DNA of 23,655 bases from a virus. Made by a program: the position numbers and the translations under genes. Location: the IMG/VR virus record IMGVR_UViG_3300021960_000516, positions 1-23,655 of that record; one strand, written 5' to 3'. This document shows positions 745 to 2,579 of this stretch, one piece after another. Positions within the stretch are counted from its first letter, which is position 1; every line of letters starts with the position of its first letter. The notes below the pieces were generated by a model. That model ran no database searches, had not been told where the DNA came from, and was given only the letters and a program-made list of their open reading frames with translations.

Positions 745-810
745 AAAACCCCTTGCGGGGACTGAATCGCTTGATTCAGTATTGGTAGAGTATCAGTTGA
801 GGGACTGATA
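745..810 (-). other. Three consecutive hairpins in the leader of the 66-716 gene
   Basis: Three inverted repeats stand side by side: CCCC/GGGG (749-752, 757-760), ACTGAATC/GATTCAGT (761-768, 773-780, perfect 8-bp stem) and TATCAGT/ACTGATA (791-797, 804-810, perfect 7-bp stem). On the minus strand the order is TATCAGT stem, ACTGAATC stem, then CCCC-GCAA-GGGG followed by TTTTAT, which looks like a short terminator or attenuator. They occupy most of the space between the control box at 808-829 and the ribosome binding site of the gene. An attenuating or RNA-stabilising leader is the simplest reading; operators for a dimeric protein are the alternative. Confidence 0.6.
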
Positions 811-829
811 AGTAAAGTTTCATGGTGGA
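808..829 (-). promoter_or_regulatory. Repeated 22-bp control box, copy 3 (upstream of the 66-716 gene)
   Basis: On the plus strand this reads ATAAGT, two variable bases, AGTTT, three variable bases, G, one variable base, TGGA. The same pattern occurs at 1899-1920 and 2558-2579. Sixteen of 22 positions are identical in all three. Each copy lies 68-91 bases upstream of the first gene of a minus-strand transcription unit; here the distance is 91 bases. A promoter or operator acting on the minus strand is inferred. It does not match a sigma-70 consensus well. Confidence 0.6.
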
Positions 830-835
830 GTGGGA

Positions 836-913
836 CACTATTTAGCGATCTCGCTCCCACGCGCCCGCTTCACGCGCCCGACAACAAATAACTGGTATCA
901 AAAGTGGTGGGCA
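836..913 (-). repeat. Distal upstream element, copy 2 (partner at 1927-1989)
   Basis: The shared blocks are CACTATTTAGCG (836-847), a GC-rich middle containing ACGCGCCCGAC, and the run ACAAATAACTGGTATCAAAA with its flank GTGG. Only two copies exist. Each sits directly behind a terminator and in front of a control box, so it belongs to the promoter region of a minus-strand unit. This copy is longer because CACGCGCCCG is duplicated inside it (858-867 and 871-880). On the minus strand TTGCCC, 17 bases, TTATTT could be a poor sigma-70 promoter. Confidence 0.6.
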
Positions 914-915
914 AT

Positions 916-937
916 AAAAAAAGGGGCCGAAGCCCCC
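916..937 (-). terminator. Intrinsic terminator behind the 942-1184 gene
   Basis: The stem GGGGC (923-927) / GCCCC (932-936) has a four-base loop that reads TTCG on the minus strand, the very stable UUCG type. It is followed on the minus strand by seven T residues (922 down to 916). It starts four bases after the stop codon of the preceding minus-strand gene. Confidence 0.9.
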
Positions 938-941
938 TTGA

Positions 942-1184
942 TTATTCTGGTACGGATGGTTTATCCGCATATGATGGGTGCAGTCTGAGTTTGTCCCCTG
1001 AGCATGGACATTCCCGCTCGCCTGGATCACCCTCAAAAAACAACGACCGGGCAAACCCGATTGCCCCGTCAAGTGTCATCACACCACCAATGTTTTTTGT
1101 TGACCAACGCAGGTGCGGGTGATCCATACAGATCACGCTGATATGCACTCCGTATGGGGCCTTGTCAGTAATTCTACCGTACAT
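942..1184 (-). CDS. Hypothetical small phage protein, 80 aa
   Basis: I do not recognise it. The start at 1184 (MYGRITDK) is preceded by GGAG seven bases upstream. A longer frame reaching 1268 would run through the terminator of the gene before it and is rejected. The first half looks like a small beta/alpha fold (YGRITDKAPYGVHISVICM). The C-terminal third is Pro/Cys/Asp-rich and probably disordered, with two cysteines in CPC spacing. There is no membrane segment. It is the third and last gene of the 1830->942 unit, but an intrinsic terminator stands just before its ribosome binding site, so its expression should be lower than that of the genes upstream unless that terminator is read through. 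Confidence 0.6.
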   Translation of the reverse strand: MYGRITDKAPYGVHISVICMDHPHLRWSTKNIGGVMTLDGAIGFARSLFFEGDPGERECPCSGDKLRLHPSYADKPSVPE

Positions 1185-1195
1185 GATTATCTCCG

Positions 1196-1217
1196 AAAAA
1201 ATGGGGGCCGAAGCCCC
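1196..1217 (-). terminator. Intrinsic terminator between two minus-strand genes
   Basis: The stem GGGGC (1204-1208) / GCCCC (1213-1217) has a TTCG loop on the minus strand, with six T residues near its 3' side. It stands five bases behind the stop of the 1222-1554 gene, and its T tract runs straight into the GGAG ribosome binding site of the next gene. It is therefore an intra-operon terminator, likely partial. Confidence 0.85.
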
Positions 1218-1221
1218 AAGG

Positions 1222-1554
1222 TTATAAGAAAGCCACTTGGCGAAAAAATGAACTATCCTCTTCGACATCTACTATTTTTGTGTCCTTTATTTTTTGTTTG
1301 ATGTCACTGAACCCTGATATATAGTCACCGCCTTCAAGCCCATAGCGAGCGCCAATGTAGCCACCCTTTGGATCAGTGATGTAAAACAAAACCCTATCAT
1401 GCTGCGTTGTCACTGCAATTAACATAAAGCGTCTCAAGCGCACCTCTATAGTGTGGGCACTGTTCGCCCATATCAGCATGTCATGTGGGAGCAGCTGTAT
1501 GCTGTTGGGCCATTCTGCCTTCTGAGCAGCCCATAGTCTTGTGAATGAAATCAT
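1222..1554 (-). CDS. Hypothetical small phage protein, 110 aa
   Basis: I do not recognise it. The start at 1554 (MISFTRLW) has GGAG about eight bases upstream. The sequence suggests a compact alpha/beta protein: a hydrophobic core strand (RRFMLIAVTTQHDRVLFYI), a Gly-rich turn region (PKGGYIGARYGLEGGDY) and an acidic, Lys-rich C-terminal part (SDIKQKIKDTKIVDVEED). It has no signal peptide, membrane helix or recognisable catalytic motif. It is the middle gene of the 1830->942 unit, flanked by a GC-rich hairpin upstream and a terminator downstream. The neighbours say only that it is one of a set of small accessory phage proteins. Confidence 0.65.
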   Translation of the reverse strand: MISFTRLWAAQKAEWPNSIQLLPHDMLIWANSAHTIEVRLRRFMLIAVTTQHDRVLFYITDPKGGYIGARYGLEGGDYISGFSDIKQKIKDTKIVDVEEDSSFFRQVAFL

Positions 1555-1572
1555 TTTGATTCTCCGGTTGGT

Positions 1573-1590
1573 GGGGGGCTTGTGCCCCCC
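1573..1590 (-). other. Perfect GC hairpin without a U tract, between two minus-strand genes
   Basis: GGGGGGC (1573-1579), loop TTGT, GCCCCCC (1584-1590) is a perfect 7-bp stem. It lies between the stop of the 1600-1830 gene and the ribosome binding site of the 1222-1554 gene. No T tract follows on either strand, so it is not a classical terminator. mRNA 3'-end stabilisation or a processing barrier is more likely. Confidence 0.5.
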
Positions 1591-1599
1591 GGTTGATAA

Positions 1600-1830
1600 T
1601 TAGATACGCTGAGGATCACCAATCTTCGCTTTGATTGATGCCTGTAGTCGGGATTTGAGATCCTCTCGCCCCTTCACTTCACGCTCCCACTCAGCGTGGG
1701 CATAGTTCAGCACTAGCACCATCATCCGCCACGCTTCAGCGGGTTTGGACATGTTGTCCGCGATGTCGGTAAGCTCTTCGATGCTTGCCGGGGTAACGAA
1801 CAGTTTGCTGTTCGGGAATGGATTATCCAT
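1600..1830 (-). CDS. Hypothetical small phage protein, 76 aa
   Basis: I do not recognise it. The ATG at 1830 (MDNPFPNS) is chosen because GGAG lies eight bases upstream. A GTG at 1929 would extend the frame, but that stretch is the repeated leader and control box, whose differences from the second copy are mostly amino-acid changing, so it is not coding. The protein is mainly helical: an acidic helix (ASIEELTDIADNM), a helix with an aromatic/Met face (AWRMMVLVLNYAHAEWE) and a basic tail (KSRLQASIKAKIGDP). It could be a small binding protein or antirepressor-like factor; nothing in the sequence decides this. It is the first gene of a three-gene unit, directly behind the best conserved copy of the repeated control module. 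Confidence 0.6.
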   Translation of the reverse strand: MDNPFPNSKLFVTPASIEELTDIADNMSKPAEAWRMMVLVLNYAHAEWEREVKGREDLKSRLQASIKAKIGDPQRI

Positions 1831-1843
1831 TTCAGTACTCCAA

Positions 1844-1898
1844 ATCTGCAAGGGCTCAGTTGCCTTGCATTGAGTACATCCTGACACATCAGCAGTGC
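1844..1898 (-). repeat. Shared leader, copy 1 (partner at 2503-2557)
   Basis: Aligned without gaps together with the adjacent box, 1844-1922 and 2503-2581 agree at about 63 of 79 positions (hand count). This copy ends 13 bases before the start codon of the 1600-1830 gene. Conserved parts include ATCTGCAAG next to the gene and TTGCATTGA in the middle. Changes fall mostly at first and second codon positions of the only open frame, so the conservation is of DNA or RNA, not of a peptide. Confidence 0.65.
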
Positions 1899-1920
1899 AT
1901 AAGTCCAGTTTGGCGTTGGA
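1899..1920 (-). promoter_or_regulatory. Repeated 22-bp control box, copy 2 (upstream of the 1830->942 unit)
   Basis: This copy has the same pattern as the boxes at 808-829 and 2558-2579 and differs from the latter at a single position. It lies 68 bases upstream of the start codon at 1830, between the shared leader and the distal element. A promoter or operator for the minus strand is inferred from its recurrence in front of every minus-strand unit. Confidence 0.6.
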
Positions 1921-1926
1921 GTCCGC

Positions 1927-1989
1927 CACTATTTAGCGCTCGCCCTACGCGCCCGACCACAAATAACTGGTATCAAAAGTGGAGGGCAC
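1927..1989 (-). repeat. Distal upstream element, copy 1 (partner at 836-913)
   Basis: It starts with CACTATTTAGCG (1927-1938), then a GC-rich middle with ACGCGCCCGAC, then CACAAATAACTGGTATCAAA and AGTGG. It sits between the terminator of the preceding gene and the control box of the next unit, the place of a promoter. It has one CGCGCCCG unit where the other copy has two. Confidence 0.6.
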
Positions 1990-2014
1990 AAAAAAAGGGT
2001 GGCTTGCGCCACCC
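1990..2014 (-). terminator. Intrinsic terminator behind the 2032-2481 gene
   Basis: A perfect stem GGGTGGC (1997-2003) / GCCACCC (2008-2014) has a GCAA loop on the minus strand and is followed on the minus strand by seven T residues (1996 down to 1990). It lies 17 bases behind the stop codon. Confidence 0.92.
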
Positions 2015-2031
2015 TTCCCGATCATCGCTGA

Positions 2032-2481
2032 TCAGTCGCACTCTATCCTATAGAGCGGCTCGGTTTTTGTCTCAACACCGATCACTACCTTCCGGCAAGT
2101 AGGACTGTCGGATTTCACATATGCGTTAACGCATACTGATATTCCCGATACATCATACCGGTATTCCCTGTTAAGGTATTCCGGCCAGTCCTTTGTGTTG
2201 GTCACTGTACCCATGGTATCCAGTGTCCAAAGCATGTTCATCAATGCAAGGCATTTAAATGACTCAAGTTTGTTCATAGTGATTTGAACATGCGGCTTGT
2301 CACCTACCATAAACAGATGCATGCTATCCGCTTCGCTCATGCACCCGGCGAGAGGCTTTGTGACTTTGCTAATGTCCTTCCGCATCTGAGTAAGCTTGAT
2401 TACTTCCGACCGGGCATGGCGGACAGTGGAGCGTGCTTGGCTTAGGGCACGGTTGAAAGCCAGAACATGAGTACTAGTCAT
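2032..2481 (-). CDS. Hypothetical phage protein, 149 aa
   Basis: I do not recognise it. The start at 2481 (MTSTHVLA) has AGGGGA about seven bases upstream. Residues 1-45 form a basic helical region (NRALSQARSTVRHARSEVIK). The remainder looks like an alpha/beta domain with alternating strands (MHLFMVGDKPHVQITM, SVCVNAYVK, CRKVVIGVE) and ends in LYRIECD. There are four cysteines but no CxxC pair, so a zinc site is not evident. It is the first minus-strand gene next to the divergent control region and forms its own unit with a strong terminator. By position it would be transcribed divergently from the late structural genes, which fits an early or regulatory product; that is inference. Confidence 0.7.
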   Translation of the reverse strand: MTSTHVLAFNRALSQARSTVRHARSEVIKLTQMRKDISKVTKPLAGCMSEADSMHLFMVGDKPHVQITMNKLESFKCLALMNMLWTLDTMGTVTNTKDWPEYLNREYRYDVSGISVCVNAYVKSDSPTCRKVVIGVETKTEPLYRIECD

Positions 2482-2502
2482 GTGGTTCCCCTTTCATGGG
2501 TT

Positions 2503-2557
2503 ATCTGCAAGAGCACTATTGCTTTGCATTGAATACATCTTGACAGATTGGTGATGG
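2503..2557 (-). repeat. Shared leader, copy 2 (partner at 1844-1898)
   Basis: This is the second copy of the leader found upstream of the 1600-1830 gene, ending 21 bases before the start codon at 2481. The best conserved parts are ATCTGCAAG and TTTGCATTGAATACATC. The two downstream genes are unrelated in sequence, so the leader was duplicated or maintained independently of the coding regions. Confidence 0.65.
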
Positions 2558-2579
2558 ATAAGTCCAGTTTGACGTTGGA
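2558..2579 (-). promoter_or_regulatory. Repeated 22-bp control box, copy 1 (upstream of the 2032-2481 gene)
   Basis: The pattern is ATAAGT, two variable bases, AGTTT, three variable bases, G, one variable base, TGGA, 76 bases upstream of the start codon at 2481. It differs from the 1899-1920 copy at one of 22 positions. Unlike the other two boxes it lacks the distal CACTATTTAGCG / AACTGGTATCA element behind it; C-rich sequence follows instead. Confidence 0.6.

Follow-up and report, generated by a model that had tools for sequence, protein, structure and literature searches.

Boxes repeated in front of the units of a minus-strand phage gene block probably represent the extended -35 regions of host sigma-70-type promoters that are followed by a 5'-terminal hairpin

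A box is repeated in front of all three transcription units in a minus-strand block of small phage genes. Most probably (probability about 0.82), it comprises the -35 element and a lineage-specific upstream extension of promoters of the host sigma-70 type, which would belong to insulated cassettes with a 5'-hairpin. The comparison with related phages showed the box, its orientation, its confinement to one block, a -10 hexamer at a fixed distance and a covarying hairpin; from these sequence features we infer promoter activity. In the proposed mechanism the host sigma-70-type RNA polymerase would recognize the -35 and the -10 element, the latter sitting 17-18 nt further on, and the conserved upstream block would add strength or regulation. 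Transcription would start about 7 nt past the -10 element. A stem-loop would lie within about 2-5 nt of the RNA start, with the ribosome-binding site and then the gene after it, and each unit would be closed by an intrinsic terminator, with a further element, designated E, behind most terminators. The block would be a row of insulated promoter-gene-terminator cassettes.

The window, i.e. the whole stretch of 23,655 nt that was analyzed, is a virus record whose plus strand carries the structural genes (terminase from 3515, portal and others); a block of five small genes is located on its minus strand (66-2481). The large terminase of the window shares about 48-51% identity with those of Pelagibacter phage HTVC027P and phage DSL-LC04, while region 1-2960 as a nucleotide query had no match in annotated phage records. 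A sister contig is near-identical to the window across 11.3 kb and extends the sequence by about 10.9 kb on the left side. A terminase of 80-88% identity is encoded at 79 other loci. Unit 1 consists of the gene for P0001 (216 aa, 66-716), which is conserved in relatives. Unit 2 begins with P0004 (76 aa, 1600-1830) and continues with P0003 (110 aa, 1222-1554) and P0002 (80 aa, 942-1184). Unit 3 contains the conserved gene for P0005 (149 aa, 2032-2481). Most relatives whose sequence extends to the left of the terminase contain P0001, often in the form of two neighboring paralogues (47% identity in the sister contig). None of the five proteins was assigned to a significant family in PHROGs or Pfam, and P0001 and P0005 had no relatives among annotated phages. 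The AlphaFold model of P0001 was confident (pLDDT 93) but had no match in a Foldseek search against the PDB (best E 3.2). The model of P0005, likewise confident (pLDDT 91), showed a fold similarity to polymerase mu/beta-like proteins that was too weak (best E 0.004, low TM) for a safe assignment. A search for the host via P0001 in genome contigs yielded three short matches in gut MAGs (44% over 39 residues), which were unconvincing.

The three copies of the box at 808-829, 1899-1920 and 2558-2579 were exact matches to ATAAGTNNAGTTTNNNGNTGGA, and all serve minus-strand genes; in minus-strand reading, their consensus with the copies of relatives is TCCCCCRYSAAACTTTACTTAW. The initial annotation, made from the sequence of the window, was correct in that copies 2 and 3 are one base apart and that the boxes lie 68-91 nt in front of the start codons (91, 68 and 76 nt to the ATGs at 716, 1830 and 2481, respectively). 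With up to 3 mismatches, 0.24 matches would be expected by chance in the window, for a pattern that was built from the copies themselves. It had been stated that no further copies are found by eye. This holds within the window, where no fourth copy was found at up to 3 mismatches, but the sister contig contains two more. One of them precedes a P0001 paralogue and has 2 mismatches, and the other is weaker, with 3 mismatches. The proposed length of 22 bp had to be revised, as the boxes belong to a longer intergenic repeat, of which they are the best-conserved section. Copies 2 and 3 are alike over 77 nt (81%), and copies 1 and 2 over 48 nt (75%) and additionally in a 64-nt block farther upstream (86%). 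Such long common flanks, and the P0001 paralogue of 47% identity next door, would also be expected if the boxes were functionless remnants of a cassette duplication. This is highly improbable, because the copies otherwise precede unrelated genes, and because divergent phages, despite changes at other bases, show constraint on box, -10 element and hairpin.

The distribution of the box in relatives was analyzed with a weight matrix that had been trained on relatives, and reversed matrices, used as controls, yielded 0-1 matches per genome. Three genomes of 62-65 kb (G006, G007 and G008) had three true copies each, plus one coding match in G007. In all three, the true copies were located in a single block of 2-3 kb beside the terminase gene. 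They were not on the terminase strand but on the other one, each of them upstream of a gene with the same orientation. The search yielded the additional copies upstream of same-strand genes that had been predicted for a promoter or operator, and these were confined to one block. Copies inside genes or in random orientation, which had been named as evidence against such a function, were not found among the true copies in the relatives scanned. Boxes 1 and 3 had been flagged as lying inside genes; the flags were due to over-long open reading frames with GTG or TTG starts, and the homologues begin at an internal ATG. One relative was devoid of the box (G004) and another had only weak boxes (G012), and both retain the gene and element E. 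In two contigs (L022 and L026) one P0001 homologue has the reverse orientation, and its box is turned around with it. The inverted cassette (L022, 2970-4581; L026, 508-2119) results in divergent promoters with P0001 homologues on both strands.

Within the window, box 1 (TCCACCATGAAACTTTACTTAT) contains the -35 hexamer TTTACT at 816-811, and a -10-like hexamer, GATACT, follows after a spacer of 16 nt (789-794), as judged from the sequence and from relatives. Boxes 2 (TCCAACGCCAAACTGGACTTAT) and 3 (TCCAACGTCAAACTGGACTTAT) both contain the hexamer TGGACT, at 1907-1902 and 2566-2561, respectively. Each is followed after 18 nt by a -10-like hexamer that is preceded by TGT as in an extended -10 element, CAGGAT at 1878-1883 and CAAGAT at 2537-2542. 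The predicted transcripts would start near 782, 1871 and 2530, all on the minus strand. The -10 hexamers of the window are weak, with 4/6 matches to TATAAT for GATACT and 3/6 for the other two. A scan of the window with a strict sigma-70 rule detected nothing at the boxes because of these weak hexamers, and the promoters became visible only by comparison.

For this comparison, a hexamer was counted as -10-like when it had A at position 2, T at position 6 and at least 3/6 matches to TATAAT. A -10-like hexamer at a spacer of 17-18 nt was present in 47 of 55 non-redundant copies (other offsets: mean 6.4, maximum 17). A held-out set, which consisted of copies from further contigs found with two pattern searches, gave 32 of 38 (elsewhere: mean 4.2, maximum 16). 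An enrichment at spacer 22 probably stems from the conserved TATTCAATG of the type-1 leaders. Nine chance matches to the core outside of the family had a -10 element in 4/9 cases and were devoid of a clear hairpin signal. The hexamers 17-18 nt past TTTACT in the relatives were of the TATACT, TATAAT, CATTAT or TACAAT types. At the homologous place in distant relatives the combinations TTGACA-16-TAGAAT, TTGACA-17-TATTAT, TTGATT-18-TATAAC and TTGCTT-17-TAAAAT were found. The best sigma-70 score in 50 regions upstream of P0001 homologues had a mean of 8.46, compared with 7.52 (SD 0.12) for shuffled sequences. The -10 element at the fixed spacing and the hexamers TTGACA, TTGATT and TTGCTT in distant relatives indicate that the box corresponds to the -35 region of a promoter of the sigma-70 type, together with about 13 conserved bases on its upstream side. 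This contradicts the earlier view that it does not look like one. Most copies have TTTACT or TTGACT (4-5/6 matches to TTGACA), two window copies have TGGACT (4/6), and a -10 element follows 16-18 nt downstream, weak in the window copies. The weak -10 elements of the window and TGGACT as the -35 hexamer of boxes 2 and 3 count against the sigma-70 reading, and so does the conservation upstream of the -35 hexamer (AAAC, TCCCC), which is about as high as that of the hexamer itself and exceeds what a plain sigma-70 promoter needs.

The main alternative explanation for these features would be a phage activator that binds to the box over the -35 position and acts together with the sigma-70 -10 element, like MotA at T4 middle promoters, where a MotA box and a -10 element are combined (PMC2988021). 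The missing G of TTGACA in most copies would fit as well, and both systems combine a -10 element of the sigma-70 type with a conserved box where the -35 element would be. However, the box differs in sequence from the MotA box, and relatives restore a good -35 hexamer, TTGACA or TTGACT, at the same spacing. This would fit a direct contact with sigma, as would TTGACT-17-TATAAT and TTGACT-17-TATACT in the sister contig, and a MotA-like promoter is thus regarded as unlikely. An additional regulator may bind to the conserved upstream half of the box.

It had also been proposed that the box is a phage-specific promoter or an operator for a phage regulator. It was retained that it is a promoter element that is common to separate minus-strand units and conserved in related phages. 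The geometry is of the sigma-70 type, and the relatives tested yielded neither a single-subunit RNA polymerase nor a sigma factor. The T7-like RNA polymerase domain (PF00940) was absent from seven records, the genome of the window itself being incomplete, and in a repeated search of G006, G007 and G008 the T7 enzyme, included as a positive control, was found. The sigma factor domain PF04542 was absent from the relatives tested. A phage-encoded polymerase or alternative sigma factor would account for the sharp consensus that is limited to one gene block, yet in view of these searches and of the fitting sigma-70 geometry it is a very improbable explanation.

The predicted transcripts of the window would begin with a hairpin. 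It was found by folding, and with covariation in relatives, at 761-780 (transcript 1, 8 bp, loop AAGC), 1847-1869 (transcript 2, TGCAAGG...CCTTGCA) and 2506-2528 (transcript 3), always on the minus strand. The hairpins begin at +3 of the predicted transcripts, which is consistent with a start 6-8 nt past the -10 element. The hairpin of unit 2 alone was not significant (z -1.1). Including the relatives, nearly every leader has a stem-loop at the predicted start, about 7 nt past the -10 element. The mean folding z was -2.54 for 57 leaders versus -0.43 for upstream controls, and -2.57 for the held-out copies. In an alignment of 18 type-2 leaders double changes occurred at all seven pairs, and the arms differed widely while the pairing was kept. 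Thirty cells were changed on both sides and still paired, compared with 10.1 in shuffled alignments (0/500), a control that overstates covariation for related sequences; with slid partners the signal collapsed. The type-1 leaders gave a weaker signal (11 cells versus 3.5, 0/500). The loss of the letters together with the preservation of the pairing argues for an RNA structure rather than a palindromic operator. The covariation thus revealed a conserved stem, which is placed at the 5'-end of the RNA relative to the predicted start. By analogy with the ompA and papA leaders, the hairpin probably guards the 5'-end and stabilizes the mRNA. Stabilizing stem-loops of this type are located at or a few nt from the RNA 5'-end (references in PMC3997798). 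In contrast to ompA and papA, the hairpin described here was predicted by comparison, and within a phage gene block it accompanies nearly all promoters.

Phage promoters of such a type are already known. The T4 early promoters have a -35 element GTTTAC (PMC1524935), which resembles (C)TTTACTTAW in the boxes, and an A-rich UP element (PMC2988021). They likewise occur in multiple copies in front of small unknown genes and show conservation beyond -35 and -10, and they use the host sigma-70 polymerase, as proposed for the boxes; both a GTTTAC-like -35 element and such extended conservation were found here. By analogy, the boxes are probably used early by the unmodified host polymerase. In contrast to T4, the upstream element (TCCCC..GAAAC) is C/G-rich rather than A-rich, there are about three copies per genome, nearly all of them are followed by a covarying 5'-hairpin, and the phages are unrelated. 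As the upstream block is C/G-rich and the timing is suggested by analogy, the boxes were not filed as T4-type early promoters. In mycobacteriophages of Cluster K, non-structural genes are preceded by short repeats, the SAS/ESAS, which are likewise a feature of one phage group (PMC3203893). With a distance of 3-7 bp to the start codon, the SAS look translational, whereas the boxes lie 68-91 bp upstream and have promoter geometry. With a few search terms, the consensus, the regular 5'-hairpin and the cassette layout with element E were not found described in the open-access literature. The consensus, checked on held-out copies, allows start sites to be found in a group of uncultivated phages without annotated promoters. 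The results suggest that 5'-terminal hairpins may belong to phage promoter cassettes as a regular component, and this makes the stabilization of mRNA by phages directly testable.

Intrinsic terminators were found for unit 1 at 27-58 and for unit 2 at 920-939, and a terminator-like stem (GGGTGGCGCAAGCCACCC) with a T-run lies behind unit 3 at 1988-2014, all on the minus strand. A sub-threshold match to NsiR1 over the unit 1 terminator, the sole match in Rfam, was taken as chance. Element E is a second element that is tied to terminators. It consists of TTGAKACCAGTTATTT and a GCGCG-rich tail, and the window has two minus-strand copies of TTGATACCAGTTATTT, one behind the unit 2 terminator and upstream of promoter 1 (886-901), the other behind the unit 3 terminator and upstream of promoter 2 (1961-1976). 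Altogether 103 copies were found in 44 contigs, and 103/103 were on the module strand. A T-run lies at most 45 nt upstream in 86/103 copies, compared with 18% of random segments, and a recognizable -35 core follows 66-107 nt downstream in 54/103. One copy is located behind the last unit without a box after it, which indicates that E belongs to the unit ends and not to the promoter.

Upstream of box 1 lies TAAATAGTGTCCCA (831-844, minus strand), a half-site of another element, F (TAAATAGYGTCCCA), and a weaker version, TAAATAGTGGCGGA, lies upstream of box 2. F is half of the palindrome AATAGCGTCCCA...TGGGACGCTATT, and it is present at other genes of the same phages too. A nearby site for a regulator is therefore plausible, and the box might be an operator for a phage repressor or other regulator, i.e. 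a protein site merely overlapping the promoter. This is quite unlikely, as the box lacks palindromic symmetry and has a -10 element linked to it at a fixed distance. A wider version of the preferred cassette reading would comprise E, F, the extended promoter, the covarying hairpin, the gene and the terminator, with a phage regulator binding to the upstream half of the box and E as a protein site for insulating or exchanging cassettes; it is tentative and rather doubtful. In leaders of replication-side genes, F occurs as a hairpin-forming palindrome (e.g. TAGCGTCCCACGRCATCGTGGGA) between the promoter and the ribosome-binding site (7369, 9370 and 5218 in L093; 4653 and 6126 in G006). In the sister contig, near-perfect promoters are present at about 3.0 and 5.0 kb (TTGACT-17-TATAAT and TTGACT-17-TATACT), and their -35 element overlaps a palindrome of the TTGACTTATAAGTCAA type.

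Directly upstream of the terminase-proximal box, G-tract DNA of the GGGGGGTGGGGGG type is found on the minus strand (2590-2640). Many relatives have a G-tract at this place, among them L027, L034, L037, L041 and L094, where it precedes the first box. Such DNA might fold into G-quadruplexes or indicate a site of packaging or replication. On the plus strand, a promoter-like sequence, TTGTAC-18-TACATT with a TGT extended -10 element, is located ahead of the structural genes (2890-2919), and its counterpart in G006, TTGCGC-18-TACATT, is conserved as judged by eye.
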